In this document: one piece after another, positions 3,141 through 29,254 of the stretch
Numbering within the stretch: the first letter of the stretch is position 1
Layout of the letters: every line of letters starts with the position of its first letter
Virus record (IMG/VR): IMGVR_UViG_3300022602_000246
Span: 1-36,181 of that record
DNA from: a virus
DNA: 36,181 bases
Direction: 5' to 3' (one strand)
Translations under genes and position numbers: made by a program
Notes under the pieces: model-generated
Database searches by the model: none
Told to the model about the DNA's origin: nothing
The model's input: only the letters and a program-made list of their open reading frames with translations

Positions 3141-3159
3141 AGATAACTCCGTAGCTATA

Positions 3160-3188
3160 ATAATATACTACTTTAATTATCTTGTCAA
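3160..3188 (-). promoter_or_regulatory. Sigma-70-type promoter for the glycosyltransferase operon
   Basis: Read on the - strand, a perfect TTGACA (-35) lies at 3188-3183 and TATTAT (-10, one mismatch to TATAAT) at 3165-3160, separated by exactly 17 bases. Transcription would begin near 3153, giving a leader of roughly a dozen bases with ACGGAG before the ATG at 3140. The element sits in the 74-base gap after the 311-residue structural gene, the widest gap between same-strand genes here. I see no convincing terminator in this gap, so late transcripts may also read through into the operon. Confidence 0.8.
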
Positions 3189-3214
3189 CGGTTAGAGGTG
3201 ATTATTTTATGAAA

Positions 3215-4150: not shown

Positions 4151-4174
4151 TTTCTACCTTTTATTTTTAAAAAC

Positions 4175-4182
4175 TATTTATT
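4175..4182 (-). promoter_or_regulatory. T4-type late promoter octamer before the 311-residue structural gene
   Basis: The - strand reads AATAAATA, one mismatch from the T4 late consensus TATAAATA. It is 24 bases before the ATG at 4150 and directly abuts the stop codon of the upstream adhesin gene. The spacing agrees with the other octamers in the window. Confidence 0.6.
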
Positions 4183-5731: not shown

Positions 5732-5739
5732 TATTTATA
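5732..5739 (-). promoter_or_regulatory. Perfect T4-type late promoter octamer (TATAAATA)
   Basis: The - strand reads GTATAAATAC, an exact match to the T4 late consensus TATAAATA, in the 49-base gap before the 508-residue adhesin gene and 22 bases before its ATG. It is the best match among the six octamers found. Confidence 0.75.
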
Positions 5740-7690: not shown

Positions 7691-7691
7691 T

Positions 7692-9911: not shown

Positions 9912-9921
9912 TTCAATCTCC

Positions 9922-10533: not shown

Positions 10534-10553
10534 GTTAATCTCTCTTTATCTAA

Positions 10554-10561
10554 TATTTATC
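10554..10561 (-). promoter_or_regulatory. T4-type late promoter octamer before the 203-residue gene
   Basis: The - strand reads GATAAATA, one mismatch from TATAAATA, in the 55-base gap after the giant gene and 20 bases before the ATG at 10533. It would give the adhesin genes a supply of transcript independent of the 15-kb gene upstream. Confidence 0.65.
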
Positions 10562-10588
10562 TGGTATTATTATCTGGGCATTTTATCA

Positions 10589-13500
10589 TTAACTCTTGTA
10601 GCTTGAATACCAAATTCCTGGAGCAGCTTTTAAGAATTGTGCAATTTTAGTATCATCATGTATAATACTAGTAGCATTATCCCAAGCAACTCCAGTAGTT
10701 TTTACTACTGTAATTTGAGTTCCAATTGATAATAAATTAGTTAACGTTATTTTTGGAGTAGTACCGTCTACTGAAAAATCTGCTTGTCCTGTACCGTCTA
10801 TGTTTTGATTCATTACAACATCACCGGCAGGACTATAAGGTGCAACATTTACATTAAACACGCTATAAGGTTCTTTCTTAAGTCTGATATTTCCAATAAA
10901 GAATGCCCAATAAGCAGAATCATTATTGAAGACAGAACTGCTAGTATGCGATACAATACAGCGATATGTGTAACTTCCGTTATTAACAATTGTGCCAATA
11001 GTATATGAGGTATTAGCAGACCAAACAGCACTAGTGTCATATCCGCCTACAAATACTTCAATCTCGTTAACCGATTTAGGAATAAATCCTAACGGAACAG
11101 TATCTGTTCCATTTGATACAATTGTACTTGTACTAACTGAATCTTGATAAGGTATAGTTTCTGTTCTACCTATATCTTGAACAAAAGTACCTGCACGAAC
11201 AAAATTGTTAACACCAGTTCCAAGTGTGCCTCGACGTAAATTAATTAAACTGTTGCCTATCTTGCCAAAATATTCAATACGTTCGCCACGTATTTCAATA
11301 ACCCCTGCAATGTTTGCATTTTGCACAGGTTCTTCAAAATTACTAGCATCTTCTAATTCAATATTTTGGCTGTTCCAATACAAATCATTAACTAATTTAG
11401 TACGCTTGTTAGCATTTAAACGTTTATAAGTTGTTCTATTAAGAATGTCTTTAAATTGCATATAAGATATACCAGGCTTAATGACGTTGCTACCAAATGT
11501 CATTAGTGTAACAGTATCGGTTATACCAGGATTAGTAGTTAACTTAATGCTTGTGTGATCGTCATTTAATTTATAATCAACACCTGGTGTTAATAGTGTG
11601 GTATTTACAATCACCCAAACATATTTTTCATTTAATACACTTCTATCTAACACAATAGTTCCGCCAACAATCGATTGGTAAGAATAAAACTCCATAGAAT
11701 CCGGAGTTAAATTTACACTAGAATCCACTGTGATGGTAGTTCTTTGCAAATCTAAAGTATCGTGTTGGTATGCGCTGAATACTTCTACAACGTCTGTACT
11801 AAAATAAGGCCTAGAAAATGTTATTTGTTTAGTAGAAGGATCAAATATGTATCCTTGACCAGTGTTTACACTAATTACCAGTTGATTGCCTGAATATTGT
11901 TTGTAAGCTTCTCTGGTAATTTTAATTGATACACCGCCTAAATCAAGTACATAATCTTTGCCGTTAACTAATACAACTCCAGAAACACTTACAACAACAT
12001 CGGTTGCTGATACTGTGTATGGAGCCACGCGATTATTATCGATGTTATAAGTTAGTCTGTTACTACCGATAGTAAAGTATACCGACACGGGCGCTGGAAG
12101 AATATGTTGATTAACACGAACCAACATATTAGGTTCATTAGGCAACGTTTCCCCAATAGGATATGCCAATGTGTAAGTAGTATTTCCATTTGCGGCAATA
12201 GTTTCTGTATTAGTAATTGCAAAAGTTGGCTGATTTCCGCTAACAATAATGTAATTGATTAGTGCTCCAGCTACAGGTGCATTAATAAATCTAATGCCAA
12301 CTAAATTACTTAATGAATATGACTGGTCTGTTTTAAATAATTGTACATTACTTGCAATACCATTCACATAAACCGCAGACGAAATGCTATCTAGCCACGG
12401 TGCTTTTGTAACAAATTCAGTAGTTGTTCCGTCGCCGACAAAATAATCAATATCTAAGATATTCTCTCCTGCATATCCAATATTAAAGATTGTTACAAGT
12501 TGCCCTTCAGTAGGAATAGTGTTAAGTGTAATTGTCTGATTTTTGTAATCAACAGTGTAATCAGAATTATACGTTTTTATTGTGTTATCAACTTTAACAA
12601 TAATTGAACGCTCACTACTTAAAAGTTCTTTTATATTAAAAGTTGCATTTGTACCCAATGCAATATAATTTTCAACATCAATTTTTGCACTACCTGAAGT
12701 AGGTCTTTCGTATACTTTAACCACAAGTGCATCTACTACTTGTCCTGGAACAACTTCTTCAGGTGCTGGGCTAGTAGTCGGTGTAACAAATCCGTCACCG
12801 TCTATGATAATATCGTCTGCATTAAAACCATTTGCTGTAAGGTAAACACCGTGAAGACTAGTTAAATCGCCACTAGTTATGTATGTGTCTGCATTAGTTG
12901 ATGCAATGGTGCCATCACTAGTACTCTGACGTAGTATAATTATACTACCATCATTTTCTGGTGCATAAGTTAATGGAACATTTATTGTATAAGTTACACT
13001 ACCGTCTGCAAATGTGTTAACTGTTAGATATTGTGAATCTGTTCTCGATATAGTCACAGCAGGCATAATAGCATAAGGATTTGTTGGAGATACTCCAGTA
13101 TTTGTATCAAAATCTTCTGCGTCTATACGCATACCGACACCAAAGTAACCAGAAATAATAAGTGTACTACCGGCAGGAACAGGATTAGTCAATAACAAAG
13201 TACCGGTTGGAAACGATGATGCTTCTGTCGGTTGTTGTAGTACTCTAGTAAATGTAAAACTAACACCATTCAGTACACTAGAATATAATATCTGACTTAA
13301 TTCTACTGTAGAATTCACAGTATCTATAGACACTACAGTTATATTATATCCAAGAATAGAATTCTGTGTACTAGTAACATCATCGTTGACTTTTATATTA
13401 GTAACAGAATCTAAATATAAAGTTGTTGAACCTGCAACATTTCCGCTAAATGCAAGAATCTCTCCGCTTAATATAATTAAAGACGGTGCAAAACTTAGAT

Positions 13501-16500
13501 ATAAAGTTGTAGAATTTTGAACTTTAGTCACATACTGTGTGTTAAACCCGTTACCGACAACACCCATTCCTACTTCAATGCCTGTTGTGTCTGTAACAGT
13601 TAAAATTGTTCCTAACGAAAAGAATGTGTATGAACCAGTTGCATCTAAGAATAAATTATTAGATAAAATCACTTCTGTATCTGTATAATCTATAACAGTT
13701 GTACCAAACTCTACACCTGTACCAGACACATATTGTCCTATAACAATGTTTGTTGTACTAGCAAATGTAATTGTAGATTGTCCTGCAACACCCAATGTCG
13801 ATACTAACGAAGATTGAATGTTTGTAGATATTGAGAATAAATCAATTTCTGGATTAGCAACATTTGTCTGTACTGTAACGTGTGCGGGTGTTTGCGCAGC
13901 AACTATTGTTTGAACTGTAGCTTCTACCGGAAACAGATATAAATTAAATGGATATACTGTTTGCACACCATCTGATACTACTGATGTCGAAATTCGTTCA
14001 GTATAGTACACATTAATTTCAGTTCCTAGGGCTGGAGTATAAGGTAAAGTAAAATTATAAGTGGTACCAGCACTAACTGTTACAATGTAGTCATTAAATG
14101 CAGGATCAAATATATCCCAACCCTGAGTTGCATAGGTAAATTCTCCCCAACCTTGTCCTACATCAAATCCAAGATTGCCTACAACTGTTCCACCATAATC
14201 GATACCAGTCATTAACTGATTTAAATCTTTTCCTAACTCGCCAGTTACAGGATTATAGAAAAAATTAATTCTATCTGCTGCATTTAATAACGAAATATCT
14301 TTTTTGTATTGTACAACAATAGTAGATCCAGTTGGTGGAGCTGTAGTAAATGTCACTGTTCCTGCATATTGTGTATAACCATCTTTGATCGAGCTAGTAA
14401 TGGCTAACTTGTATAATTCTCTTAGCACAAGTATACCGTTAATTGTAACAGTAGATTGGCCCACTCGAATATCAGGTGCCCACTCTAACGGGAATTGAAG
14501 TAATGAGCCCGATCCCGTAAATGTATTTGTAACATCTATATTTGTAATATAGTTAGTATAAGTCAATCTATCAAATTTTATCCCAACAAGATTAGATCTA
14601 ACTACACTATTGCCAATTATTGCAACTGCTCTTGCAGCTACTCCGCCTTCACTGAGCCCACCAACAATAGCTACGGTAGGAGCTGTTAAATATCCACTTC
14701 CAGAAGTTAACAATATTAGTCTATTAATAACACCATTTGTAAAATATGCTACTGCTGTTGCGCCGGTGCCACTATTGCTTGTAAATACAATCTGTGGCTC
14801 TGTAATATATCCAGAACCGCTGTTGACAATTTTTAAATCGATAACACTATATCCGGCATTATCTAACCAGAATTTCCAAGGATAAGAATTTATTTGTGAC
14901 GAATCAATATTAATTTTCTCATCAACTAGCTGTGTATGGATTAAACTCAGCTGATTATTTGTATAAACTGGTGGTAAATCAAAGTCTGTTACTGCGGATT
15001 CTGCTGTATCTAACGCTGTGTAATCACTAATATATTCTCTAATTTTAGTTTTGTACGGCTTAACTTCATTTACATAGTCTTGGAAGTTACTTAGATTATC
15101 AACAGGATAGTAAACTGGTTGACCTAAAGTTCCTACATTATGTGTTGCTCGAACAAAACTTGTTTTGAAAATCCAATCAAGATAAAGTTGTTCGCTATGT
15201 GCATAACGAACACTTCTAAAGAATAAATCTAAATAAGTACCTTTTAGTGTATTGATAAAGATATCGTTCTTTAGTGTTGTCAATATTAATCTTAACTCTG
15301 TGGCAGCTTTAACGTCAAATGCGCCGCCATCGTAAATACTTGCATCGTATCCTACAGCAGTAAAATCAGTTTGATACAAACTACTACTTAATTGTATTGT
15401 ACCATTTTGTATTCCTACAACGCTATAGCTTAAAGTCCAATCAACACTAGTTGAATCTGCATACTTGTAGAGAAGTTCCCAACCTCCAGTATTAACTGTT
15501 AATACTTTTACAATTTCTCCTACCGACACTGAAATAGAATTTAAGTCAGTGTAGGTTTGTACACTATGATCTGCTGCTGTAAATTGAGTGGCTGTGTACA
15601 ATATTTTGCCTGTTGAATCAGTATAAGAACCGTACCAATCAATGTAACTCCAATAATTTCTAACATCGTAACTTTGTGTTAAAATTCTAGACCATAATCC
15701 TGTAGTTAATCCCGATGCGTTATCAACATAAGTTGGATCAAAAGAATATATACTCCAACTTCCATCGGCTTGTGAATCGCTATGCACTAATACACTATAA
15801 TCTCTAACTGTACAGGTTGTTGTATCATCATAACCATATCCCGGAGATATTACTGTTGCATTTACAATTCTGCCTAAAGTATCAATGATTGCTCGCACAA
15901 CAGCACCTTTACCTGTACCAATAATATTGATGTAAGGTGCAACTAAGTAACCTTTACCTGGACTTACTACTGTTATTCCTGTAATATTACCATTTGTAAT
16001 AACTGGAATTATAGAAGGACGTTGAAATAATGCTATATTAATATACGATAATTCTACAGAAGTATCTAAGGTTGTATCATACAATCCTGTAATTAAACTA
16101 GGCTCAGTATCATAAGATTCTAACCCTGTTAGATTGTAATTTTTAACAATTTGATTTGATGCTAACGCAATATTAGCAGCTTCTACAAATTCTTTAAGTG
16201 CTTCAACTCGGTTGATGAACATACCCTGACGTGGACGATTTTCAATACCGTATTTTAATTTAACAGGTAAGTTGATATCAGGCACAGGACGGCCTGCTGT
16301 ATCAACTCCGCATAGACTATCTATCCATTTTTGTTCAATAGTATGCGGTAGATCAACAATCGTATCTGTACTAATAAGTTTCCACTGACTGTGGATATTT
16401 CTATGTATACTATCAGTATTCCAGTATTCAACAGCTAATGCAATTTTAGTATCGTTAAGATACTGATATGCATTGACTAAACTAAAAGAATCGTTGCCAA

Positions 16501-19500
16501 TTAATGCCATATAAGTGTATGCAGCATTTTTTGGTTTAGCGATAAGGTTAGAAACAGCTTGTGCAGAAATATGTCTGCCATTTATATTAGGCACTAATGT
16601 TTTATTTTTTACCCAGTAATAGTAAGTGTTTACAAATTTTTTCGTTACTGAATTGTATCGTTGTCGAACTGTATAAGCACTATTACCGTATAAACTTGTT
16701 CCGCTAATACCTAGAGCTAGTCCAGCAGGAGTGTCAGCTTGGGCATCCCATTGACTTGGAGTTAAGTTTGTAGAGATCCATTCGTATATGTCGACGCTTG
16801 CTCCAGGAGCAAGCTGATTCCACACATTGTTTCTATAAGCAACATCTGAAAAATAAGGTGTAACAAATTTAGTTGTTCTTAAATCCCACCATAGTTGTCC
16901 TAGTTGATTGTTGGACCAATATGTGCCATTACTAACTGTTACTCCAACAGTTCCGTCTGAATAAGAATAAACAGCAGGATCGTAAAATGTTTTAAATTTT
17001 ATTTCCTCGTCAGCTGGGCCGGCAATTTTTCCTTGGATTGGATCGATCACATCTAAGTACGTTACTAATTCGTTATTGATTCTATTGTATAAAAATGATT
17101 TTTTAAGTTTACTAACATCCACTACATCGATTTGTGATCTGTATTGTGTCCAACTTAGAGAATTCAACGGTTTAGTATATGCATACACTATTCCAGAATT
17201 AGCATTAGTTTTAACTGTTGCTAACGGAGATCCTACAAAAATATTGTTATTGCCGACAGCAAACCCTAGACCAAATCCATCTAATTGTTGATCTTCATTT
17301 ATTATACTTTCACTATAGACCCATACATCATTGTATCTATCATATACATCAATACGACCACTACCTACAACTGTAGTACTAAATTGTGTAGAATTTTTAT
17401 CAAAAGTTGTTTCTGCTAGAGATTTATTAGATGCAGAATCCGATACATATGATGTACCGTACAATGTCTGGCTATCTGTTAATAAAGAAGAATATACATC
17501 GAATGTAGTTTCAATCGATCCTGCAGCATTTTCACTGTATATCACAAGAGTATTTGAATTATTCATGAAAGCAACTTTGGTTCCAAAGTTACTGCCTAGA
17601 TCGAGATAATGATCTTTTATGTCTTGTACTTTAACATATTGTCCGTTAATAAGTTCATATACACCAACATTGCCGTGTTCGTTTATTTTAGTAGTTGTCG
17701 ATAATTCGTTGCTTATTGCAATAAAATTGCCATCTGACGAAATAGCAGTGCTTGTTCCAAAACTATTATCTAATCCAACTAACGGTTGCGCAGATGACCA
17801 ATTTCCGTCTGTATTTGTAAAAATGTATACTTTTCCAGAAACTCCTCGACTAGCAGATACAACTAGGGTATTAGAATCTGAACTTAAAGAAAGATTAGAT
17901 CCAAAATTACTAAGGTCTTCAGTACCTGTAAATGTTCCTGTAGAGTCATACTGCCATGCTAAACTTGTAAATGTCAATTTTCCATCAGGAGTAGAGTCAG
18001 GCGCTGTTGTTACAATAATCGTAGCTGCACTAATTACAGAATTAACCACAGCATCAAATGAACTAGTACTATTAGAAAATGTTACAGTTGTAATAGTTGG
18101 TGGTAAGTCTTGAATACTTCTAATTAATACAAAACCATTTCCCGAAATGTCTATTCCGGTACTTACCACAGATGTATTACTAAAAATACCGGTACCTGAT
18201 ACTAGTGTACCTGTGGTAATATTTGTTAATGGAATATTGTTATTTTGTGTATCCCTGATATATCTTGGCAAACCACTTATAGGTGGAAATACTAATTTAG
18301 TTAGCACTGAACCTACTAGTTGTCCGCTAGAGAAACCAGTACCACTGATTGTCTGCCCAGCTACTATACCACTAGAACTTAATACCTTAATTGTTTTCCC
18401 TGAACTACCAATGTCATCATAAAATGTAAAAAATTCTGTAACTGTATTGTAGGTTAATTTATAAACTCTGCCTTTTGAATTATTAAATCCGCTGGCGCCG
18501 ACAAACAAATTATCAGTATCAAATACTAGACTAGATCCAAAATTTTCATTAGCTGAAGGAAACGGACTTATGATACTGTCAACTAGTTGATATACGTTGT
18601 TAGCATCTTTTTTGTATAAGCTAATAACACCTTGTTGAGCTAATGTCGAGTTTGTTGCTGTAGAATCTACAGGAATATAAGATATAGGATTCCAATAATA
18701 CAAATCTATACCCGGAGTTGAATTTACAGGAACTGCAAAAGTTGCTTTATAATACATATCCAAATATGACACAATATCACCTTGTGAATACGTATGAGTT
18801 GCATTATAATTTTCTATATATCTTGTGGCTACAAAGCCGGCTAACGGAGAACCGGTTGCAAGCCAACTGCCATCCGAACTGATAGCAAGTGTCGATGCAA
18901 TTGTGCTAAGATCATTGGCATTGTTATTTGCAATGAACGGAGCGTGAATATACTGGCGTTGAGTCCAGGCAACTGATCTACCAACCTTATCGTATACACT
19001 AATTTGACCAGTTCGCATGCTTACTGCAGCAATCGTTCCCCGGGTATTCATTGCAATGGTTCTACCAAATTGTAAATTATTTGACGAAATTATATTTGCA
19101 ACAGAAGATTTTTTATAAACAGGATCATAAATCCAAGATGCCCATTTGCCGTCTCCCTTATCATCAGTCCAGATAAAATCTCCAGCTTTGATATTCTTTG
19201 GCAACATTGTGTCTATGTAATCAATAGAGCCGGCACGTTGTGATACTAGGTTATAAACAACTAAATTAGATGCCTGACTAAACTGAGGAGGTAGTCCTAC
19301 TACTGTAGCAGATACTGTGAATACATTAAGAGTAACACTCGTGATTTTATAAAATCCATTTATACCCGTAATATTTGAACTAATATCTAACATGAGTCCT
19401 ACATAAGAACCTACACTAAATTTTACAAGATCTTGACAGGTAATTGTTAGTACATTGTTGTTATACGTTAATGCATTAACGCGAATCCCTGCATCGGTAA

Positions 19501-22500
19501 ATCTGTAAATGTTCCAACTATTAACTTCATATGTGTTATCAAAAGCACACCAAACATAAGCACCTTCATTTACTTGTGTAATATCAACTGACACTGTTCC
19601 AGTACCGATTCCAGTACTAGATGCGTTAAATGAGATACCTACCGTGTTGCTGGCAGCTCCTATTTGTGTAAAATCAGTAGTGCCCACAGATAATATTACA
19701 TAATCGACTCCAGGTGTAATAGTATCTACAGTTTGACTAGATAATTGTGAAATGTTTCCTAAACTTAAAAACACATCCGCTGTATTGACATATCCCGCAC
19801 TTCTTAAAAATGGTTCAAAATTTTCTACAACAGGGAACGGTGTTGAGTTATAACCTAACGGTTTAACATAAACATCATTAGGAGTTTGTTGAATTACAAA
19901 TAGATTAATTGTAGAGTCAATACTGTTAACTAATACCGTTGCTTGCGGATTGCTTCTATTAAATTTACCTTGATCTAAAATAAATTCAATGTCATCAAAT
20001 GCATTAGCAGCTCCGTATTGACCTACACGCAATGCCCATTCTTCATAGAATGTCAAACTTTCTTCTGCATCAGAACTTAGTACATCAAATAATTTATTAA
20101 GAACATTCTGTGTGCCTTTTTCACGAATCATTCCTTGGTAGAATTTAAATTCGCTAACATCATCTTGAATAATATTATCAAGATATTGTCGTTTTTGATA
20201 GCCAATTAGATGCTGTGCCATTTTTTGTTGTGCACTATCAAAGCTATCCACTTCTAAACTATAAAAGTCTTTAAATTGAGTAGCACTATTGGTCCAGTTT
20301 GGTAAAATTTGACTTATCGGTTTACCGGCTAGTTGTGTCCAGCTAGAAGAAATAAATGTAGGCGATCCTGCAACAAATTTATTTGCGCTATAATAATAGC
20401 TTTGGTATGACACAATGTCGCCTGAATTGTAATCTTGATACGGTTGCCACAATTCAATAGCGGCAGCATCAAAAATAAATCCTGGAATATCTAGGCCACC
20501 GTACCAATCATTTGTAATATATCCGCTTACTTTTAGACGTTCTTGTCTATAACCGCTAGTTGGATTATAAATTACATCATTAAAAATAGTCGAGTTGTTA
20601 ATAACAACTACGTGTTCATTTTGTACTAGATAAAATGCTGCTCCATAAATTCCATCAGTAGTTCTAGGATTATATGTTACAGAATTTCCTTGACGATAAC
20701 TATCAATTTTAGCGATTTCAAGTGGAGTACCATCTACTTTAAAAATTTCATAAGGATTAAATTTGTTAGTAATACTATCAACTACTGTAAGATTTGTAGT
20801 AAAGTTTACGCCATTTGCACTTGGACTTAAACTAATAACACTAGCTCCGACATTGCTCAGCCCTGGCATTAAAGACCATTTACCGTAGTCAAACGATGAA
20901 GAAAGTGCTACATTTGTCAAGGCGCTATAATAATCTCCTTCATATTTTACAATACTGCCGTATGAATAAGATTGATTAGGTTCCCAATTACTCCATTTAT
21001 CTTGACCCGAACTCCAGTTTTGTGTAGTCCAGAACATGAATTCACGAGCACTAGTTTCCCAGTTAGCTACAGAACTTAAATTGTTATTAAAATCATCAAA
21101 TACAAATCCTTGATCTTTTAAGCACTCGCCATAACCTATTAAAAAATCCACTACATCTTGAATAGTAGTAAACAACACACCGTAAGGTGCAACTAGAGTG
21201 TTTGATTTGTCCCAACTAGTTCTAATATAAGCGGTTGCCCCACCTGTGATAGGCAGAGAAGATAACGGTGAAAATGCTGTTTGATCAAAGCTAGTAGACG
21301 AAGTTACTGTTGAGATAGCTCTGTAATATTTTCCGCCATACTGAACTATAGTACCAGCAGAATAAGTCTGTTGTTCAGTCCAGTCTACATAATTTTCTGA
21401 TATACCGCCAACATTGATGTACATACCAGTATTGTTTGGGGCATAATATTTAAAATAAGGTTGAGTAATGCTATAACCTTTAATTTCAAACCCAGTTGAA
21501 AGTTTCGTTATTACTACTCCGCTATATACTAATTTTTCTACACTACTAGATTTATTCAGAAATACCGTATAATCTTCTGTAGGGACAAACACGTTACCCG
21601 AGCTACTTGGAGTTTTAGATTCTAGGAGTAAATTAAATTGACTTTTATTTGTAAATGCACCGACCCTGTAACTTAATTTAACATCCATTGTTGCTAAATC
21701 AGTTGCATATGAATTATATCCAGCAATGTTATTACTAAAAATATAATTAAAAATTAAATCAACAATATAATTTACTAAGCCGGCTGTTTGTACTCGAGTA
21801 CTGCTTGAATACACACTCGGTAGTAAAATGTCAGAAGGTTTAATACGTAAACCGGTTTCTGAATATACAAGTTGTCCTGCTATGTTTCTAGAAATTCTAG
21901 ATCTGTCTAATAAAATTCCAAATGTCTTAGCCGGTGTTAATAAGATAGCAGAAATAATTACCGAAAACGGATAATAACTGCTACGTGTCCAAGCAGATTC
22001 AACTGGACTACCATCGCCAAATACAAAGTTATTATCAATACTTGGTCGAATCATTCCGCTAGCAAGTCCTGAAAATTGTGGACTTAATAAATTTCCAGAT
22101 TCGTCAACTGGCAAACGCTCTAATAAGAATGGCTTTGCAAATTTAGGTCTATACGCTACAGGGTTATTAGGTTCTCTCACTATACCTGCTGCAATATCTT
22201 GCCACATTGGCAAGTTATTACTTGTATATGGAGCTGGACCGTATACTGAATTCCACCACGCAGGTTGAATACTAAATCCTAGCATCTCCCAAGGACAAAT
22301 ATTTGGACGGTCTGTGTCAAGCAGCCAGCGATAAACGCCGCGCCAGTAACCTGGTAATCCTGTTCCATCTGGAGCAGTATTCAAAGAATAATTATATGTA
22401 AAACTGTTGGTTCTGTCATAGTTCAACGGAGTAGTTAAATCTTTACCAACTAAGCTAATCCATTTATAAAAATTAGGAGCCAAAATTTCATTAAATTCGG

Positions 22501-25500
22501 TCAAACTATAATCTGTAGATCTATTATAACTTGGAATAAAATCTGTTACATCAAATATATCTACATCATAATTGACTTTTATATTATTAAAAATTCTTTT
22601 TTCTAATTCTAACAATAATTGATCTCTGTAATCACCGTAGGCAAGAATTAAACTACCATCGTGACCTTGAATCACCAGTTGAGGATTTACAAGTGTTGTG
22701 TCTGTATAAATTTTTGGAACATATGCAGGCCACATTCCTAATTTTGTAGGAGTAGAAGGAACAAAACAGCCGTCAGTACTGTCGTATTCGTAAGTACTAA
22801 TTGAATCGCCGTTAGTAAGATTAACACTAGGATCAATAATAACAAATCCCTGATTATTGAAAGAATAATCTTGTCCGTGGATTAGCTGCACTCCATTTAA
22901 ATATATTCCAACTGCTTTGTTGCTCAACGATTCTAAAGTGAATACACTACTTAATGGGTATTGACGAATTCTATAATCAACCACTGTTAAATCGGTTACG
23001 ATGCATGCACCGTATGGAACCATATCGCTAAAATAGTACGGAGCAACATTTGGTTTAGCAGCATTTAACTTTTGTAATACCTGGTTAACCACAGTAACAG
23101 GATCGCCATCTACTCCTAAATTAGTAGCAGTGCTGATAAAGTTTCTTTTAAAGTTATTATAGTCCTCTCTAGATTGTTCAACAGCTTTGATTATATTGTT
23201 AGTTTCTGATGTTGTATGATAAATTCCTAAACTTAACGGTCCGCTATGTTGTACAAATTTAGTCCCATAAGGAGTTATATTTCCAAGATCTCGTAAATCG
23301 CTATCGCCAGGAAATACTCCAATAAACTGAACAGTTTCTGCGTTAGTCGAACTAACGGTATTTTGATATAAGTTATCGATAATACTATCAACATGGTTAA
23401 TAACTTCACCTAGTGTAAAATCTCCAATCTCGCCATTCAATGGATTATTTTGCAAATTAACAGGTATTTCATAATAACCATTAGCATTAATTGGTTGACT
23501 AGAAAATGCTCTAATAGTTAGTACGTCAGTTAATGCAATAGGATTTACCAAACGAATATTTTTATACAAGCCTTTGCTAGTTATAGACCACAGACTAGGA
23601 TTTAATCGCTTGCCGTTAATATAGATTCTAACAACTAGATCTGACAAGTTATTAATGTCATCGTAAATATCTAATTTAAAATTATTAGTTAACCCTGAAT
23701 TTTTATAAATTCTTACAGCAGCTTGAACTGTATCTACTTGGCAAGTTTGCCAGCCATTTATATACCGTGTGTTGCCTGCATAATCTAAACTAGATAAAAA
23801 TCCAGAATCTATTTTTTGTGTTTCAACAATTGCGGTTTTTTTGTATTCAAAACTGTCAGTCACTAAGTTAAAATTAAAAACAATATCACCTATATTGTTA
23901 ACATTTTGATAGCTTAGTGGAAATCCTAATACAGTATCTGCAGAGCCCGATCCTTGTTTATAAGAAAATATAGGAGTTCCAACAAAGGTAGTACCGCTGT
24001 AAACAGTAGTATCACCGACACTTATTCCATTACTATCAAAAATATCAAATAATGGAGATTGATTTACCGATAGCTTTTGTTGGGCTTGAACCCATGTTGT
24101 TCCGTTGTACCAGAACATTTGTCCTTGAAATTTTCCTTGTTTTACTAAAACTACTTGGTTTAATTCTGGACTAGCTACTTCAACTAAATGAAGGTGGTTA
24201 CTACCACCGTTTAGATGTTTAACATCCACGTACTCAACACGGAAAATTTTATTTTGTACTAGAGGATCTGGATCGCCTGTAAATAAAACAAGCATGCCTA
24301 GAGACAGCGCAATAGATATGCCGGCTACAGTTGTAGGTTCGTTATATCCAGAACGACCTTCAATTGCTGTAAACACTGGGACAGAATCTTTGTTTAAGCT
24401 AGTATTGCCAGTGGTATTATCTAAAATATCAACATCTAAAATAGCGGTTGTACCAAAATTAAACAATCTCAAATCTGGTTGGAATTCAATAATAGGTCTA
24501 GTAGCTCTTGCAGATTGATCTATTATAGGTGTGTTGTTATTATAAGTTGCGCTGGTATTGATAACATCTTGATGGAACCAACGATTATATCTTGACCACG
24601 GGTTATGGTCGCTGCTTGCTCTGTTAATTGTAATATAATCAGGAGATCCTGCATACCCCGTTGCATTTTCCCAGGGTTCTTTATCAAACCCTACACTGTC
24701 AAAAGGTACAGATTCGTTCGTAGAGTAAGTGCTAACTACTTCTAATACCGTCTCAGGAACTAATTTAATTGCTGTTCCTACACCTTCTACATAAAATTGT
24801 CCGGTAGCATATTCGGCAGGAGTAACATTTCCACCAAATTTAATTTTCATGCCATTACTTAACGTAGTACCATCAGGCAATGTTACCGACGATTTACCTA
24901 AAATTACAGAAGATACATCAATGCTGGTGTCTGCTTCGATTGAAAATATTTCAACAATACCTCCAAGATTGATATCTGTTTCGCTTTGATAAAATAATAA
25001 ACTAGGTGCTGTTTCTGGCACAGTAAATGTAACTGTACCCAGTTCTACTCCGTAATTATCTATTGCATTTAAGTAGGAATAACGTTGATCAGATCCAAGT
25101 GAACGAGATGTTTTAAAACTAAAAGGGTTACCAGGACTATTAACTTTAAATGTATATGTTTGTCCTCTATATAATTTTAACACAGGATCTGGTGTTGCTC
25201 CGTCTGGGGTGAAAATATATTGATTGTTAGCACCTTCTGATTGAATAGACACTGTATAAGATGTACTAATAGTAGCATTAGGACCATATATAGTAATTGT
25301 ATCAGGACCATATGGTAACCAATAATAGTTTTGAAAGTTAACAAACTTGTCCCAATCGATATGGGGATCCCACGAATAGAATTCTTGTTTATTCAAACGT
25401 GCATGATCTGTAGTATTACCACCAAATACATTAATTTGATTAATATAATCTACGTAGTCTTTAAAGAATGTTATATTTTCTAAATTGTCAGTGATAGTTA

Positions 25501-25741
25501 TTCCAGGCTCTAACTGATAATTTTGTCTTACAGCATCTGCAGCTTTAACATAAACATCAGCACCTGTACTGGCCTTGGCATTTTCTCTACCAATATATCC
25601 TGTAGTTTTTGTTAGTGTGCCTGGTTGAAATAATTGATCAACTGTTGATTGTAAAAACTTTTTATTGGCTATTGTTTGATAGAACTTAGGTAATAGATTT
25701 GCGCTAAGTCCGTTCTCACCGTTAACGTTATTAATGGCCAT
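10589..25741 (-). CDS. Giant mosaic tail/baseplate protein, 5050 residues, with CBM5/12-like modules and a beta-propeller
   Basis: One uninterrupted frame of 15.2 kb, four bases after gp6. Residues 1-150 (GLSANLLPKFYQTIANKKFL, then NITFFKDYVDYINQINVFGG and DPHIDWDKFVNFQNYYWLPY) look like the N-terminus of a very large protein of T4-like aquatic phages. Five chitin-binding-like modules start near residues 1454, 1586, 1765, 2310 and 4907. A helical conserved block follows at about 1830-1930. An FG-GAP-like propeller spans about 2225-2869 and another conserved block about 2905-3130. GSGY repeats lie near 3250 and 3625-3700, tandem SGTG-type beta repeats at 3991-4171, and six or more VNGxxLxxGxDY modules are scattered through it. 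The sequence shows no protease or transmembrane segment I could recognise. It occupies the gp7 position in T4 gene order and may combine wedge and adhesin roles, but I see no residue-level match to gp7. Host-surface glycan binding is inferred from the CBM-like modules. Confidence 0.85.
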   Translation of the reverse strand: MAINNVNGENGLSANLLPKFYQTIANKKFLQSTVDQLFQPGTLTKTTGYIGRENAKASTGADVYVKAADAVRQNYQLEPGITITDNLENITFFKDYVDYINQINVFGGNTTDHARLNKQEFYSWDPHIDWDKFVNFQNYYWLPYGPDTITIYGPNATISTSYTVSIQSEGANNQYIFTPDGATPDPVLKLYRGQTYTFKVNSPGNPFSFKTSRSLGSDQRYSYLNAIDNYGVELGTVTFTVPETAPSLLFYQSETDINLGGIVEIFSIEADTSIDVSSVILGKSSVTLPDGTTLSNGMKIKFGGNVTPAEYATGQFYVEGVGTAIKLVPETVLEVVSTYSTNESVPFDSVGFDKEPWENATGYAGSPDYITINRASSDHNPWSRYNRWFHQDVINTSATYNNNTPIIDQSARATRPIIEFQPDLRLFNFGTTAILDVDILDNTTGNTSLNKDSVPVFTAIEGRSGYNEPTTVAGISIALSLGMLVLFTGDPDPLVQNKIFRVEYVDVKHLNGGSNHLHLVEVASPELNQVVLVKQGKFQGQMFWYNGTTWVQAQQKLSVNQSPLFDIFDSNGISVGDTTVYSGTTFVGTPIFSYKQGSGSADTVLGFPLSYQNVNNIGDIVFNFNLVTDSFEYKKTAIVETQKIDSGFLSSLDYAGNTRYINGWQTCQVDTVQAAVRIYKNSGLTNNFKLDIYDDINNLSDLVVRIYINGKRLNPSLWSITSKGLYKNIRLVNPIALTDVLTIRAFSSQPINANGYYEIPVNLQNNPLNGEIGDFTLGEVINHVDSIIDNLYQNTVSSTNAETVQFIGVFPGDSDLRDLGNITPYGTKFVQHSGPLSLGIYHTTSETNNIIKAVEQSREDYNNFKRNFISTATNLGVDGDPVTVVNQVLQKLNAAKPNVAPYYFSDMVPYGACIVTDLTVVDYRIRQYPLSSVFTLESLSNKAVGIYLNGVQLIHGQDYSFNNQGFVIIDPSVNLTNGDSISTYEYDSTDGCFVPSTPTKLGMWPAYVPKIYTDTTLVNPQLVIQGHDGSLILAYGDYRDQLLLELEKRIFNNIKVNYDVDIFDVTDFIPSYNRSTDYSLTEFNEILAPNFYKWISLVGKDLTTPLNYDRTNSFTYNYSLNTAPDGTGLPGYWRGVYRWLLDTDRPNICPWEMLGFSIQPAWWNSVYGPAPYTSNNLPMWQDIAAGIVREPNNPVAYRPKFAKPFLLERLPVDESGNLLSPQFSGLASGMIRPSIDNNFVFGDGSPVESAWTRSSYYPFSVIISAILLTPAKTFGILLDRSRISRNIAGQLVYSETGLRIKPSDILLPSVYSSSTRVQTAGLVNYIVDLIFNYIFSNNIAGYNSYATDLATMDVKLSYRVGAFTNKSQFNLLLESKTPSSSGNVFVPTEDYTVFLNKSSSVEKLVYSGVVITKLSTGFEIKGYSITQPYFKYYAPNNTGMYINVGGISENYVDWTEQQTYSAGTIVQYGGKYYRAISTVTSSTSFDQTAFSPLSSLPITGGATAYIRTSWDKSNTLVAPYGVLFTTIQDVVDFLIGYGECLKDQGFVFDDFNNNLSSVANWETSAREFMFWTTQNWSSGQDKWSNWEPNQSYSYGSIVKYEGDYYSALTNVALSSSFDYGKWSLMPGLSNVGASVISLSPSANGVNFTTNLTVVDSITNKFNPYEIFKVDGTPLEIAKIDSYRQGNSVTYNPRTTDGIYGAAFYLVQNEHVVVINNSTIFNDVIYNPTSGYRQERLKVSGYITNDWYGGLDIPGFIFDAAAIELWQPYQDYNSGDIVSYQSYYYSANKFVAGSPTFISSSWTQLAGKPISQILPNWTNSATQFKDFYSLEVDSFDSAQQKMAQHLIGYQKRQYLDNIIQDDVSEFKFYQGMIREKGTQNVLNKLFDVLSSDAEESLTFYEEWALRVGQYGAANAFDDIEFILDQGKFNRSNPQATVLVNSIDSTINLFVIQQTPNDVYVKPLGYNSTPFPVVENFEPFLRSAGYVNTADVFLSLGNISQLSSQTVDTITPGVDYVILSVGTTDFTQIGAASNTVGISFNASSTGIGTGTVSVDITQVNEGAYVWCAFDNTYEVNSWNIYRFTDAGIRVNALTYNNNVLTITCQDLVKFSVGSYVGLMLDISSNITGINGFYKITSVTLNVFTVSATVVGLPPQFSQASNLVVYNLVSQRAGSIDYIDTMLPKNIKAGDFIWTDDKGDGKWASWIYDPVYKKSSVANIISSNNLQFGRTIAMNTRGTIAAVSMRTGQISVYDKVGRSVAWTQRQYIHAPFIANNNANDLSTIASTLAISSDGSWLATGSPLAGFVATRYIENYNATHTYSQGDIVSYLDMYYKATFAVPVNSTPGIDLYYWNPISYIPVDSTATNSTLAQQGVISLYKKDANNVYQLVDSIISPFPSANENFGSSLVFDTDNLFVGASGFNNSKGRVYKLTYNTVTEFFTFYDDIGSSGKTIKVLSSSGIVAGQTISGTGFSSGQLVGSVLTKLVFPPISGLPRYIRDTQNNNIPLTNITTGTLVSGTGIFSNTSVVSTGIDISGNGFVLIRSIQDLPPTITTVTFSNSTSSFDAVVNSVISAATIIVTTAPDSTPDGKLTFTSLAWQYDSTGTFTGTEDLSNFGSNLSLSSDSNTLVVSASRGVSGKVYIFTNTDGNWSSAQPLVGLDNSFGTSTAISSDGNFIAISNELSTTTKINEHGNVGVYELINGQYVKVQDIKDHYLDLGSNFGTKVAFMNNSNTLVIYSENAAGSIETTFDVYSSLLTDSQTLYGTSYVSDSASNKSLAETTFDKNSTQFSTTVVGSGRIDVYDRYNDVWVYSESIINEDQQLDGFGLGFAVGNNNIFVGSPLATVKTNANSGIVYAYTKPLNSLSWTQYRSQIDVVDVSKLKKSFLYNRINNELVTYLDVIDPIQGKIAGPADEEIKFKTFYDPAVYSYSDGTVGVTVSNGTYWSNNQLGQLWWDLRTTKFVTPYFSDVAYRNNVWNQLAPGASVDIYEWISTNLTPSQWDAQADTPAGLALGISGTSLYGNSAYTVRQRYNSVTKKFVNTYYYWVKNKTLVPNINGRHISAQAVSNLIAKPKNAAYTYMALIGNDSFSLVNAYQYLNDTKIALAVEYWNTDSIHRNIHSQWKLISTDTIVDLPHTIEQKWIDSLCGVDTAGRPVPDINLPVKLKYGIENRPRQGMFINRVEALKEFVEAANIALASNQIVKNYNLTGLESYDTEPSLITGLYDTTLDTSVELSYINIALFQRPSIIPVITNGNITGITVVSPGKGYLVAPYINIIGTGKGAVVRAIIDTLGRIVNATVISPGYGYDDTTTCTVRDYSVLVHSDSQADGSWSIYSFDPTYVDNASGLTTGLWSRILTQSYDVRNYWSYIDWYGSYTDSTGKILYTATQFTAADHSVQTYTDLNSISVSVGEIVKVLTVNTGGWELLYKYADSTSVDWTLSYSVVGIQNGTIQLSSSLYQTDFTAVGYDASIYDGGAFDVKAATELRLILTTLKNDIFINTLKGTYLDLFFRSVRYAHSEQLYLDWIFKTSFVRATHNVGTLGQPVYYPVDNLSNFQDYVNEVKPYKTKIREYISDYTALDTAESAVTDFDLPPVYTNNQLSLIHTQLVDEKINIDSSQINSYPWKFWLDNAGYSVIDLKIVNSGSGYITEPQIVFTSNSGTGATAVAYFTNGVINRLILLTSGSGYLTAPTVAIVGGLSEGGVAARAVAIIGNSVVRSNLVGIKFDRLTYTNYITNIDVTNTFTGSGSLLQFPLEWAPDIRVGQSTVTINGILVLRELYKLAITSSIKDGYTQYAGTVTFTTAPPTGSTIVVQYKKDISLLNAADRINFFYNPVTGELGKDLNQLMTGIDYGGTVVGNLGFDVGQGWGEFTYATQGWDIFDPAFNDYIVTVSAGTTYNFTLPYTPALGTEINVYYTERISTSVVSDGVQTVYPFNLYLFPVEATVQTIVAAQTPAHVTVQTNVANPEIDLFSISTNIQSSLVSTLGVAGQSTITFASTTNIVIGQYVSGTGVEFGTTVIDYTDTEVILSNNLFLDATGSYTFFSLGTILTVTDTTGIEVGMGVVGNGFNTQYVTKVQNSTTLYLSFAPSLIILSGEILAFSGNVAGSTTLYLDSVTNIKVNDDVTSTQNSILGYNITVVSIDTVNSTVELSQILYSSVLNGVSFTFTRVLQQPTEASSFPTGTLLLTNPVPAGSTLIISGYFGVGMRIDAEDFDTNTGVSPTNPYAIMPAVTISRTDSQYLTVNTFADGSVTYTINVPLTYAPENDGSIIILRQSTSDGTIASTNADTYITSGDLTSLHGVYLTANGFNADDIIIDGDGFVTPTTSPAPEEVVPGQVVDALVVKVYERPTSGSAKIDVENYIALGTNATFNIKELLSSERSIIVKVDNTIKTYNSDYTVDYKNQTITLNTIPTEGQLVTIFNIGYAGENILDIDYFVGDGTTTEFVTKAPWLDSISSAVYVNGIASNVQLFKTDQSYSLSNLVGIRFINAPVAGALINYIIVSGNQPTFAITNTETIAANGNTTYTLAYPIGETLPNEPNMLVRVNQHILPAPVSVYFTIGSNRLTYNIDNNRVAPYTVSATDVVVSVSGVVLVNGKDYVLDLGGVSIKITREAYKQYSGNQLVISVNTGQGYIFDPSTKQITFSRPYFSTDVVEVFSAYQHDTLDLQRTTITVDSSVNLTPDSMEFYSYQSIVGGTIVLDRSVLNEKYVWVIVNTTLLTPGVDYKLNDDHTSIKLTTNPGITDTVTLMTFGSNVIKPGISYMQFKDILNRTTYKRLNANKRTKLVNDLYWNSQNIELEDASNFEEPVQNANIAGVIEIRGERIEYFGKIGNSLINLRRGTLGTGVNNFVRAGTFVQDIGRTETIPYQDSVSTSTIVSNGTDTVPLGFIPKSVNEIEVFVGGYDTSAVWSANTSYTIGTIVNNGSYTYRCIVSHTSSSVFNNDSAYWAFFIGNIRLKKEPYSVFNVNVAPYSPAGDVVMNQNIDGTGQADFSVDGTTPKITLTNLLSIGTQITVVKTTGVAWDNATSIIHDDTKIAQFLKAAPGIWYSSYKS
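10898..11023 (-). other. CBM5/12-like module 5 of the giant protein (residues 4907-4948)
   Basis: WSANTSYTIGTIVNNGSYTY then a WAFF end: the W..(..)Y..G..V...G..Y.......W layout of chitin-binding CBM5/12 modules. It splits a C-terminal domain, with EVFVGG just before and IRLKKEPYSVF just after, which reads as one continuous domain if the module is removed. Confidence 0.65.
13229..13771 (-). repeat. Tandem beta repeats of the SGTG type in the giant protein (residues about 3991-4171)
   Basis: Three to four consecutive units of about 45-55 residues share the pattern of a Thr/Ser strand, a G(Q/M)xVxGxG turn and a VTxVxxxTVxLS strand, for example NIVIGQYVSGTGVEFGTTV, GIEVGMGVVGNGFNTQYV and NIKVNDDVTSTQNSILGYNI. 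The same unit type occurs near residues 2440-2500 of this protein and in the 643-residue adhesin. Boundaries were judged by eye. Confidence 0.6.
17135..19069 (-). other. FG-GAP-like beta-propeller region of the giant protein (residues about 2225-2869)
   Basis: Seven recurrences of a blade pattern are visible: FGxxxA(I/F)SxDGxxxAxxS, then a GxVYxY/VYD strand. Blade-start examples are FGRTIAMNTRGTIAAVS, FGSSLVFDTDNLFVGAS, FGSNLSLSSDSNTLVVSAS, FGTSTAISSDGNFIAIS and FGLGFAVGNNNIFVGSP. A CBM-like module interrupts blade 2, and about 175 residues with two SGTG-type units interrupt blade 3. A seven-bladed propeller is my inference from the count. Confidence 0.7.
18683..18814 (-). other. CBM5/12-like module 4, nested inside propeller blade 2 (residues 2310-2353)
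   Basis: NATHTYSQGDIVSYLDMYY followed by a YYWNPI end: the classic Y..GD.V.Y...Y.A.......W spacing, with Asn replacing the usual first Trp. It sits between ATGSPLAGFVATRYI and GVISLYKKD, which read as two halves of one propeller blade. Confidence 0.7.
20330..20449 (-). other. CBM5/12-like module 3 (residues 1765-1804)
   Basis: WQPYQDYNSGDIVSYQSYYY, then SPTFISSSW: the cleanest CBM5/12 match in the protein, with both Trp residues, GDIVSY and the Tyr cluster in place. Confidence 0.75.
20867..20986 (-). other. CBM5/12-like module 2 (residues 1586-1625)
   Basis: WEPNQSYSYGSIVKYEGDYY, then FDYGKWSLM: Trp, Y..G..V.Y.G.YY and the closing Trp are all present. It follows FMFWTTQNW and precedes a beta region starting ASVISLSPS. 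Confidence 0.7.
21263..21382 (-). other. CBM5/12-like module 1 (residues 1454-1493)
   Basis: WTEQQTYSAGTIVQYGGKYY, then a FSPL end: the first Trp and the Y..GTIVQYGG.YY core fit CBM5/12, but the closing Trp is replaced by Phe. It lies between MYINVGGISENYV and ITGGATAYIRTSW. Confidence 0.65.
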
Positions 25742-25745
25742 TTAC

Positions 25746-28700
25746 TTATTTCCCTGTATTTGGAGCTGTAGTCACTGACTGATTGCTAGTAAGACTGTTT
25801 GTAGGAGTAGAGCTAATTGTTTTTAAATTTGTTCCAGTGAGTCCTGTAACAATAACAATGTTGCTGGTTGTAGCACAACTTAAAAATATGTTGTCAGTTG
25901 CACATTGAATTTCAAATAAATTTCCAAAATATAATCCTGGTTGATTTGGTACAATAACAAATGAAATCAAATCAGGTGCTAATTGATTCATAACGTAAGT
26001 ACTCAATTCAGTAAAATAGAATGTATCTCCAAAATTCCAATTGTCCAATGCAAAAAATGTATTGATTGCTTGTAAAATTCTTGTTTGCACATCTGCAGCC
26101 GATACAGCACTGGAAGGATTTATCATAGCATTAAATGTTGCTTGTAAACTAGGATCGGCTTGTTCACCAAATAATAAAGTATAATTTACAGGATGATATA
26201 TTATTTCATCACTTATAGATTTAATTAAATTTAAATTAGTACTAAGCAGTGTGTTTAACTGATCGCTGCTAGGGGGCAGCGGAGAGTTACCTACAGCACC
26301 ATTAGATACCCATTGTCTGAACGATAAATCGTAATCTGACGTTAGCACATAGATATCTATAATATTACTTGCTCCTGGATCGATTCTACTATCGTAATCT
26401 GCACTGTGTACATATTGAAATTTCAAACCTGATCGCCCTACGTATACTTCGTAATCTAAGGTAGGACTTAATTTTCCGGTCGATAATGTTAGTTTAAAAA
26501 CAGTTGCGGTATCTATAAAATAAAAATATGTTCCGTCTGCATATTGCGTTAACGGACCGGCTGCAGCTTGAGTTGCAAATATCAACACTGGTCCACTATC
26601 TGGATCATTGGCTACATATTCGTAGTCTTCTTGTCCTTCCGAGATTGTATATTTTTGTTCAACAACATATTTGGTCAACGGATTAGTTGACGGAGCAACA
26701 ATATCTAAAAATAATTGAGGATTGTCAACAATGCCGTTTCCGTTTGAGTCGGCAAAAGTTATAATAAGTTTTTTAGGATCAATATATCCGTCTTGTCCAA
26801 TGTATTCATTTACAATTTGCCATGTAAGATCCTGAGTGAAAGGAACTGTATCGTCTGGTTGAGTGTTAATACTTAAAACTTTAATAGTGTCTGAAATAGT
26901 ATTACTGGAAATAGTGTCATAGATAGTTGTATTGCTATCAAAGTAAAATGTTACTTGATTGTCACTTTCAAATACATATCTTAAATTACGTGCGGTTACT
27001 GTATATTGCTCAGTATTAGTAGTAAACAACAACATCCAACTAGAATCTAATTGAAGATTACTAGTGTCTCCTTGATTACCAAGACTAAAAGGATTAGTAA
27101 CATTTAAATTATTTGCAAAAATAATTTGCCAGCTTTGTGTAGTAGCATCATATCGTAAACCAAAACTATCATTGGCAAATATCAAATCTATCATTGTTGT
27201 AATAACTGTAGGGCTGATTGTTGTTACAAACTGAGGAATGATCTGTGTAGCCACCGCAAGAGAAGGAATAGGTTTGTTTAATACAATTGGTCCTTGACCT
27301 GTTGTAGACACAACTCCTGTATTGTTTGCTGTACCGTCGTCGGCAACACTTACAACTTCGGCCCATATATAGCTTGCTGATCCTGGAACCGTAGCCGTGC
27401 CTGCTTTCAAAACATTGTCATCGGAGTCAATATAGTACCCCTGGGGAGCTGTAAATTTAATTATAGCGCCCGCTGTAAGATATTTTAAATCTGTTGCTGT
27501 AAAGGACCCAACTTGTAATGGAATATTAGTAGACCCCGATAACGAAGAAATCAAACTAATAAATCCGCTAGAAGTATTACTGTCAGTAGTAACAGCATTC
27601 CATTGAATGTTAAGACTGACATTTAAAAAATCTAAATAATTTGAATAATAAAAATTTCTTAAATTAGGAGTATTTAAAATATCATAAATGTTATTATATA
27701 TAATTCCTTGAATATCTGTCTGAGTTACGTAAGTAAAATTCGTAGTTGAATTATAATTTTCTTTGTATATTACACCATCATCTGCAAATAGTGTAGTCTT
27801 ACTATATTTGCCAGTAGGGTCTGTTAGGTCAAAGTAACGACTAATACCACTACTAGTTCTATTAACAGCCTGCACTTTTGCTACATTTAAATTAGCACTT
27901 AGCGGACTAATATTATAGTCTTCTCCAGTAATCATACGATTTTGTGTATAGTATGTTTGCGGAGCATTTGTTTTAACACTGGCGTTTGTTTCTGCTGTTG
28001 CAGCATTTGTAACGCTAGTAGCAAGACTTAAACTGATAGTCAGAATTTCTGCTGTATTTTTTGCACTTGTATAAGGAATAGATACTACTATATTAACAAT
28101 ATCTGCTGGATTAATTGTGTAATTTAGGCCATTGCTTACTCTATAGTAAGTTCTAAAATTACCTAAGGGTAAATTACCAAATGTTCCATCACTGAAACTT
28201 AAACTAACTGCATCACTAGCTCTAGTAATTACACTATAAATGTTTTTAATTTTTGCACTTAGACTGTTATAAATTATGTTATTACCAGTTGTAGCAGGCA
28301 CTTGTGTCCATAAATTTGTTTCTAATCCCGAGCTTTGATCGAGGCTATATAACCATATATCAGTATTATTAATATTTTGCGTAGGTATATCTATTTGCTG
28401 ATTACTAGTTGGTTGAGAAACTGTAAATGCTCCAGTATTCATCGTGCCTTGAGTAAAATTAAAAAAGAATCCTGTACCTGGACTGCTTGCACCAAACCCG
28501 TCATCGCTATATACACAGGCTATCTGATTTCCAATTTTAGGAGCTTCTTCGTAGATATAAGATTTTCCGCTAAAGGTAGTACTGGTGATTTCAAAATTCA
28601 TACTACGACCAGACACTGTTTTATTAAAATTATAAATTGGAACATTAGTATTTGAAGCATTAAATCTATACTGAGCTGTTGGAACTCCGTATATTGTTGC

Positions 28701-29228
28701 GCTATCTATAGGATTACCAAATTGACTAGTTGCTGGTAATGCAGCGTTTATAACTTTAATAAATTGATCGTACCAGTTAGCATTGCTTGGATCATTCCAA
28801 GTAATATATTGACCTGATAAATTACGACCGTTACTATCGATTACATTTTCAGTTGTGCTTACTGTGCCAAATTTTAACAAGCCTTTGGCAGCAATATTTC
28901 TGCTAGCGTTATAACCAATCATACGTGCTAGACGTAAGATACTATCACGACGTTCTGCTAGCTCTAAGAAATTTTCACGAGCATTTAAATCAACGCGAAA
29001 GGCAATACTTTGTCCAATATAAGCAATTAAGTCAATCAGAGCAAGGTATTCGCTGGATTCAATGTAGTCGTTGAAGTCTTCTGGAAAATTTGTACGGATA
29101 TAATCAATCATTGTTCGACGCAGGTTATCAAAATCATAGCTTTGAAAGTTTGCGTTTTTAAAAGACTGATAAATTTTTTGCCAATTTTCAGCAATTAAAA
29201 GATTATTCTGTCTATCCGTTGAGCTCAT
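25746..29228 (-). CDS. gp6: Baseplate wedge subunit gp6
   Basis: The N-terminal ~120 residues are typical of T4-like gp6: NFQSYDFDNLRRTMIDYIRT, FPEDFNDYIESSEYLALIDL, then FRVDLNARENFLELAERRDS and ILRLARMIGYNASRN. The C-terminus also fits the family, with QTRILQAINTFFALDNWNFG near 1055-1065 and DLISFVIVPNQPGLYFGNLF before the end. gp6 dimers link neighbouring wedges into the inner ring of the baseplate. At 1160 residues it is far longer than T4 gp6 (about 660), with the extra length in a Ser/Thr/Asn-rich middle. It starts at ATG 29228 after AGGAT, with a late-promoter octamer 18 bases upstream, and is followed after four bases by the giant gene, so both are probably on one late transcript. Confidence 0.9.
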   Translation of the reverse strand: MSSTDRQNNLLIAENWQKIYQSFKNANFQSYDFDNLRRTMIDYIRTNFPEDFNDYIESSEYLALIDLIAYIGQSIAFRVDLNARENFLELAERRDSILRLARMIGYNASRNIAAKGLLKFGTVSTTENVIDSNGRNLSGQYITWNDPSNANWYDQFIKVINAALPATSQFGNPIDSATIYGVPTAQYRFNASNTNVPIYNFNKTVSGRSMNFEITSTTFSGKSYIYEEAPKIGNQIACVYSDDGFGASSPGTGFFFNFTQGTMNTGAFTVSQPTSNQQIDIPTQNINNTDIWLYSLDQSSGLETNLWTQVPATTGNNIIYNSLSAKIKNIYSVITRASDAVSLSFSDGTFGNLPLGNFRTYYRVSNGLNYTINPADIVNIVVSIPYTSAKNTAEILTISLSLATSVTNAATAETNASVKTNAPQTYYTQNRMITGEDYNISPLSANLNVAKVQAVNRTSSGISRYFDLTDPTGKYSKTTLFADDGVIYKENYNSTTNFTYVTQTDIQGIIYNNIYDILNTPNLRNFYYSNYLDFLNVSLNIQWNAVTTDSNTSSGFISLISSLSGSTNIPLQVGSFTATDLKYLTAGAIIKFTAPQGYYIDSDDNVLKAGTATVPGSASYIWAEVVSVADDGTANNTGVVSTTGQGPIVLNKPIPSLAVATQIIPQFVTTISPTVITTMIDLIFANDSFGLRYDATTQSWQIIFANNLNVTNPFSLGNQGDTSNLQLDSSWMLLFTTNTEQYTVTARNLRYVFESDNQVTFYFDSNTTIYDTISSNTISDTIKVLSINTQPDDTVPFTQDLTWQIVNEYIGQDGYIDPKKLIITFADSNGNGIVDNPQLFLDIVAPSTNPLTKYVVEQKYTISEGQEDYEYVANDPDSGPVLIFATQAAAGPLTQYADGTYFYFIDTATVFKLTLSTGKLSPTLDYEVYVGRSGLKFQYVHSADYDSRIDPGASNIIDIYVLTSDYDLSFRQWVSNGAVGNSPLPPSSDQLNTLLSTNLNLIKSISDEIIYHPVNYTLLFGEQADPSLQATFNAMINPSSAVSAADVQTRILQAINTFFALDNWNFGDTFYFTELSTYVMNQLAPDLISFVIVPNQPGLYFGNLFEIQCATDNIFLSCATTSNIVIVTGLTGTNLKTISSTPTNSLTSNQSVTTAPNTGK

Positions 29229-29246: not shown

Positions 29247-29254
29247 TATTTATT
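29247..29254 (-). promoter_or_regulatory. T4-type late promoter octamer before gp6
   Basis: The - strand reads AATAAATAC, one mismatch from TATAAATA within the octamer, in the 50-base gap between gp25 and gp6 and 18 bases before the gp6 ATG. Confidence 0.65.

Follow-up and report, generated by a model that had tools for sequence, protein, structure and literature searches.

A 5,050-residue phage protein encoded directly after gp6 is probably a giant form of the baseplate wedge protein gp7

Which protein occupies the gene slot after the baseplate wedge gene gp6 when that slot is filled by an ORF of thousands of codons, and does the position tell us its role? The window, i.e. the whole stretch of DNA analysed here, is a standalone virus record of 36,181 bases, in which a single stop-free minus-strand ORF runs from its ATG at 25741 to 10589 and encodes 5,050 aa (554 kDa), leaving a gap of 4 nt between the end of gp6 (25746) and its own start. 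Recognisable genes around it are those for gp5, gp25 and gp6, for another wedge subunit (phrog_7145) and for gp55, the late sigma factor. The two genes at the centre of the question are:

10589..25741, minus strand: the giant gene, 5,050 aa, a PHROG 10938 member and putative giant gp7 (wedge protein)
25746..29228, minus strand: gp6 (baseplate wedge), 1,160 aa, directly upstream of the giant gene (phrog_10646, E=9e-297)

That there is one stop-free frame four bases past gp6, as an earlier note on this DNA had described, is borne out by the ORF coordinates and by the lengths of homologues. One relative has a homologue of 5,036 aa with ~89-90% identity in the two tiles compared; among 80 IMG/VR relatives, the 38 homologues that are complete have 4,267-5,160 aa and several incomplete ones still exceed 5,240 aa. 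Given this close homologue of 5,036 aa and 38 complete ones of like length, the 5,050-aa length is no artefact. In 71 of the 72 IMG/VR relatives that contain the gene start, the giant gene is immediately preceded by a long ORF (1,138-1,216 aa where complete). Elsewhere in the window, three consecutive minus-strand ORFs (4183-5709, 5759-7690 and 7692-9911) encode fibre/collar proteins with like N-termini, the first having a C-terminal Peptidase_G2-like stretch (E=1e-4, below the cut-off) and the last a tail collar domain, and two adjoining minus-strand ORFs (1131-1976 and 1954-2793) contain glycosyltransferase-like DTD/DSD stretches and have no Pfam or PHROG match.

Both halves of the giant protein match PHROG 10938, 'virion structural protein', in a profile search (E=3.3e-245 over four stretches and 2.5e-80 over two), and the matches take in most of the conserved scaffold; in PHROGs the family is filed under 'head and packaging'. 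IMG/VR holds relatives at no fewer than 592 loci, and isolate homologues are found in RaK2 (3,326 aa), CBB (CBB_236, 3,340), SCTP-2 (gp140, 3,807), PA5oct (gp355, 3,857), Atu_ph07 (4,449) and Phosso (4,555). A BFVD search returned members of the family together with a few giants of cyanophages, the latter via common modules. In RaK2, PA5oct, Phosso and CBB the giant homologue directly follows gp6, SCTP-2 being the exception, with its gp6 homologue ~92 kb away. In Salicola phage SCTP-2 a 3,096-aa ORF without assigned function (6609-15899) immediately precedes the giant gene. Virion presence is known for homologues, the window protein itself being known from its gene alone: mass spectrometry of CBB virions detected 21 unique peptides of CBB_236 (PMC5259590), PA5oct gp355 is a virion protein by mass spectrometry according to its record note, and 17 peptides of phAPEC6 gp245 (381.88 kDa), which adjoins the wedge protein gp244 in the list, were found in virion mass spectrometry (PMC7247149). 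Both its size and its location behind the wedge gene suggest that gp245 is the phAPEC6 homologue. The giant gene thus adds a large new representative to a family of giant tail-baseplate proteins of big phages that was already catalogued. Among isolates, the most distant member observed comes from Stenotrophomonas phage CM1, where an open frame of ~3,150 aa starts at 3988, after gp6, and carries a KGS variant of the block described below.

Compared with distant members of its family, the giant protein consists of a conserved scaffold and inserts. Relatives conserve most of residues 1-2000, 2800-3900 and 4300-4900, and much of residues 1–1944, plus 2865–3200 and 3316–3653, is common even to RaK2, whereas the variable islands fall at residues ~2400-2600 and ~3900-4200 and at the extreme C-terminus. 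The main stretches, all on the minus strand, are:

19910..25741: residues 1-1944, conserved scaffold common to RaK2, PA5oct, Phosso and SCTP-2
17162..19069: residues ~2225-2860, about seven FG-type repeats, propeller-like (by pattern), holding the variable island at ~2400-2600
16142..17149: residues 2865-3200, second conserved block (by conservation)
15830..16003: residues 3247-3304, glycine-rich beta repeats (39% identity to the S-CAM1 gp7-position protein, E=1e-4)
14783..15796: residues 3316-3653, third conserved block (by conservation)

Conservation across relatives confirms the conserved non-repeat blocks noticed earlier, which are longer than had been said; the N-terminal block, which had been called an aquatic-phage type, is not one, being common to enterobacterial, Pseudomonas and rhizobial phages. 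As for the propeller, about seven FG-type repeats are indeed visible, and their pattern, on which that assignment rests, suggests that residues 2225–2860 form one. Predicted tiles 990–1990 and 2850–3660 matched nothing in the PDB at E <0.001 with Foldseek, and profile searches of residues 1-400 and 2900-3150 gave no gp7 match by sequence. VIA-align recovered chiefly the carbohydrate-binding (CBM) modules, with Z up to 7.9, a result that is compatible with other folds as well.

The link to known wedge proteins comes from the most conserved stretch of the whole protein:

20006..20254, minus strand: residues ~1830-1912, KGT...EEW block, candidate gpI/gp7-type core

Conservation peaks at residues 1831–1890, where the motif FYQG.I..KGT...KLF is followed by EEW; P2 gpI has KGT and then EW. 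In hhalign comparisons the block aligned with a diversified P2 gpI profile at P=0.0011 (probability 20%, both the KGT and the EW motifs aligned) and with cyanophage gp7-position proteins at P=0.0066 (probability 6%), both probabilities being low when taken by themselves (6-20%), with the short KGT motif supplying much of the score. Column-shuffled controls reached at most 20.5 against a score of 27.8 for P2 gpI, and at most 22.2 against 23.1 for the cyanophage proteins, so that in either comparison none of 300 shuffles attained the observed score; among tiles of residues 1–1909, the one bearing the block alone stands out in both. The cyanophage block is in turn clearly homologous to T4 gp7 (hhalign probability 96%, E=4e-9). 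A direct comparison of the giant block with T4 gp7 is a weak match (P=0.045-0.075, score reached by 25 of 300 shuffles), and neither the whole profile of residues 1–2010 nor sliding blocks matched T4 gp7, the latter staying within background. Neither Pfam and PHROGs nor PDB sequences yielded a gp7/gpI match when searched with the block, and residues 1-110 show no relation by sequence to the gpI N-terminus and no gpI-like N-terminal helix pair. A hit of the block to Phage_T7_Capsid (E=0.004) is weak and was judged to be chance. In single-chain AlphaFold predictions the block has pLDDT <50, and it may be that it folds solely together with gp6.

Cyanophages provide annotated precedents for a giant protein in this slot. 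S-CAM1 has the order gp25, gp6, a 3,032-aa protein and gp8, and in S-SSM7 a 3,007-aa gene labelled gp7 comes immediately after gp6. The label 'baseplate wedge initiator' is attached to proteins of 4,067 aa in Bellamy and 3,891 aa in S-8S53, and proteins bearing the block reach 6,198 aa in S-ShM2, 6,422 in ACG-2014b, 7,124 in P-SSM7 and 8,573 in P-RSM6. In the last of these, positions 103907-129628 are annotated as one 'virion structural protein', with a gp7-type KGT block. The size contrast with T4 gp7 (~1,030 aa) that had been drawn for the window is real, but cyanophage proteins already reach 3,000-8,573 aa, so that giant gp7s were known before and 5,050 aa is no record.

We consider it probable, at roughly 75%, that the giant protein is gp7, the wedge protein of contractile tails (gpI in P2, TssG in the type VI secretion system, T6SS), in a giant form. 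The gp7 position and wedge role proposed in the earlier note are supported by synteny, by the family, by virion mass spectrometry of homologues and by a KGT/EEW block that P2 gpI and cyanophage gp7 proteins have as well. An alternative that we regard as unlikely is that a giant baseplate-peripheral or side-fibre protein merely adjoins gp6, the true gp7 being another small, unrecognised protein. In favour of such a view, no significant fold match connects the giant protein with gp7/gpI, the link to them is a short motif, the ORF that follows the giant gene (9922-10533, 203 aa) belongs to a family without assigned function (phrog_11259), and in SCTP-2 the giant gene is separated from gp6. However, one would then have to account for the gp25-gp6-giant synteny in most relatives, for the giant, gp7-annotated proteins that cyanophages have in this slot and for a KGT/EEW similarity that exceeds that of shuffled columns.

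Transcription signals bear on how closely the two genes belong together. ATAAATA is the T4-type late promoter motif, and it occurs in the window as follows:

29247..29253, minus strand: ATAAATA, 19 nt before gp6 begins; candidate promoter for the gp6-giant unit
10554..10560, minus strand: ATAAATA, just past the giant gene and 21 nt before the next gene; proposed start of the next late unit
4175-4181 and 5732-5738, minus strand, and 36091-36097, plus strand: further ATAAATA sites

These five occurrences compare with 26.5 expected, and four of them lie 19–25 nt ahead of minus-strand gene starts. The motif is found at most 60 nt upstream of gp6 in 57 of 68 relatives and before the giant gene in none of 71, the commonest arrangement of gp6 stop and giant start in relatives being a 1-nt overlap. 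Within the relatives' giant genes it occurs 13 times on the sense strand, against 202 expected by synonymous codon shuffle (a ~15-fold depletion); it is likewise rare on the antisense strand, and permuted motifs are mostly near expectation, except for one that shares most letters with ATAAATA. A motif before gp6 and absent before the giant gene, the overlap of stop and start codons, and the depletion inside the gene together point to gp6 and the giant gene most likely being a single late, coupled unit, as far as can be read from sequence. Gp6 and the giant protein would then be made jointly from one late transcript on which their stop and start codons overlap or adjoin.

A second question is what the remainder of the protein contributes, and here the CBM5/12-like modules come first. 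The PF02839 profile matched four stretches (E=1e-10), and a fifth module, under the Pfam cut-off, nevertheless matches the chitin-binding domain (ChBD) of chitinase A1, which bears out the five modules described previously:

21251..21388, minus strand: module 1, residues 1452-1497, absent from RaK2
20855..20992, minus strand: module 2, residues 1584-1629, an inserted loop that RaK2, PA5oct, Phosso and SCTP-2 lack
20318..20449, minus strand: module 3, residues 1765-1808, an inserted loop that RaK2, PA5oct, Phosso and SCTP-2 lack
18671..18811, minus strand: module 4, residues 2311-2357
10895..11023, minus strand: module 5, residues 4907-4949, near the C-terminus

For modules 1 and 2 the predicted fold matches that of chitin-binding domains (Z 5-8). 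Judged by sequence comparison, modules 1-3 are optional loops within the conserved scaffold; as RaK2 has no such module and PA5oct one, with two to five in IMG/VR members, the modules in general are optional. CBMs as a defining feature of the giant protein were rejected, RaK2 having none. Of the very large glycan-binding surface that had been envisaged, the five modules stand, each of just ~45 aa and with putative binding; the giant protein might bind surfaces or glycans through them. It could be argued that the CBM5/12 and repeat modules serve above all to bind glycans and that wedge contact is secondary, i.e. that the protein is a host-surface adhesin, since there are five CBM-like modules and CBM-like folds match baseplate, fibre and tailspike chains of phages such as Milano, 7-7-1, A-1(L) and Pam1. 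We find this very unlikely, because the modules are optional and the same fold occurs in T4 capsid proteins, where it does not imply chitin binding. That the protein is a polyprotein, cleaved post-translationally into several structural proteins, would fit its size and its division into separate conserved blocks and variable islands, but is scarcely credible given that phAPEC6 and CBB each list one product with many peptides at 7.6-7.7% coverage, a result that is compatible with processing too.

How, then, might a giant gp7 work? In each wedge of phage XM1, a single gp7 homologue (gp17, 242 aa) is joined by two gp6 homologues, while two gp17 regions hold the tail spikes (PMC10457771); in the T6SS, loops of TssG hold TssK (PMC6300606). 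By analogy, the gpI-like core (~1830-1912) and two gp6 chains would make up the conserved 2:1 wedge, one per baseplate sixth, and the single gp7 chain per wedge, its copy number and the peripheral location of the rest would follow suit. The ~1,830-residue N-terminal and ~3,140-residue C-terminal parts would form the baseplate periphery and meet fibres or the host surface; they are largely conserved, with CBM5/12-like, propeller-like and beta-repeat modules plugged in. Anchoring by one end, as previously suggested, is not what is seen, since the recognisable core is internal to the chain, with those two long parts on either side. Nor does the protein qualify as a major part of virion mass: six copies amount to 3.3 MDa, about 1% of a particle the size of phAPEC6, for which capsid protein comes to ~68 MDa (capsid numbers from PMC7247149) and DNA to ~228 MDa. 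It may, though, be a large part of the baseplate. A tentative extension, possible but doubtful, is a near single-chain wedge, in which the gpI core is embedded mid-chain, exchangeable modules sit in loops, and the N-terminal scaffold and C-terminal blocks replace the T4 peripheral wedge proteins gp8-gp11.

On the gp7 reading, the family of RaK2-like and environmental 'virion structural proteins' (at least 592 loci) gains a testable identity as a gp7/gpI wedge subunit, and an ~80-residue segment is pinpointed as the candidate gp6 contact. If true, wedge proteins would span 176 to more than 8,500 residues through insertions around a small core. New here are the assignment to gp7/gpI by way of the KGT/EEW block, the architecture of inserts and the proposed joint late unit with gp6.

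Set beside known systems, the window protein shares with P2 gpI, T4 gp7, XM1 gp17 and T6SS TssG the gene slot after the gp6/gpJ/TssF homologue, and with P2 gpI also the KGT...EW block, whereas these proteins have only 176 to 1,032 aa and the link to T4 gp7 is indirect, via cyanophages. The cyanophage giant gp7s have the same slot where checked (S-CAM1 and S-SSM7), the KGT block and some of the glycine-rich beta repeats, but lack overall sequence similarity to the window protein, and their block is N-terminal (residue ~195 in S-CAM1) rather than at residue ~1875. With the chitinase ChBD (ChiA1, 1ed7) the window modules share the W...Y..G..V...Y.A sequence pattern and the predicted fold, although module 5 has Phe in place of the tryptophan after the HTS motif. 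Closest of all are the PHROG 10938 giants, which belong to the same family, have the same scaffold and usually occupy the same slot after gp6; compared with those from isolates, the window protein has the greater length (5,050 aa), carries three to five extra CBM5/12-like modules and has a repeat region of ~900 aa separating two conserved blocks.
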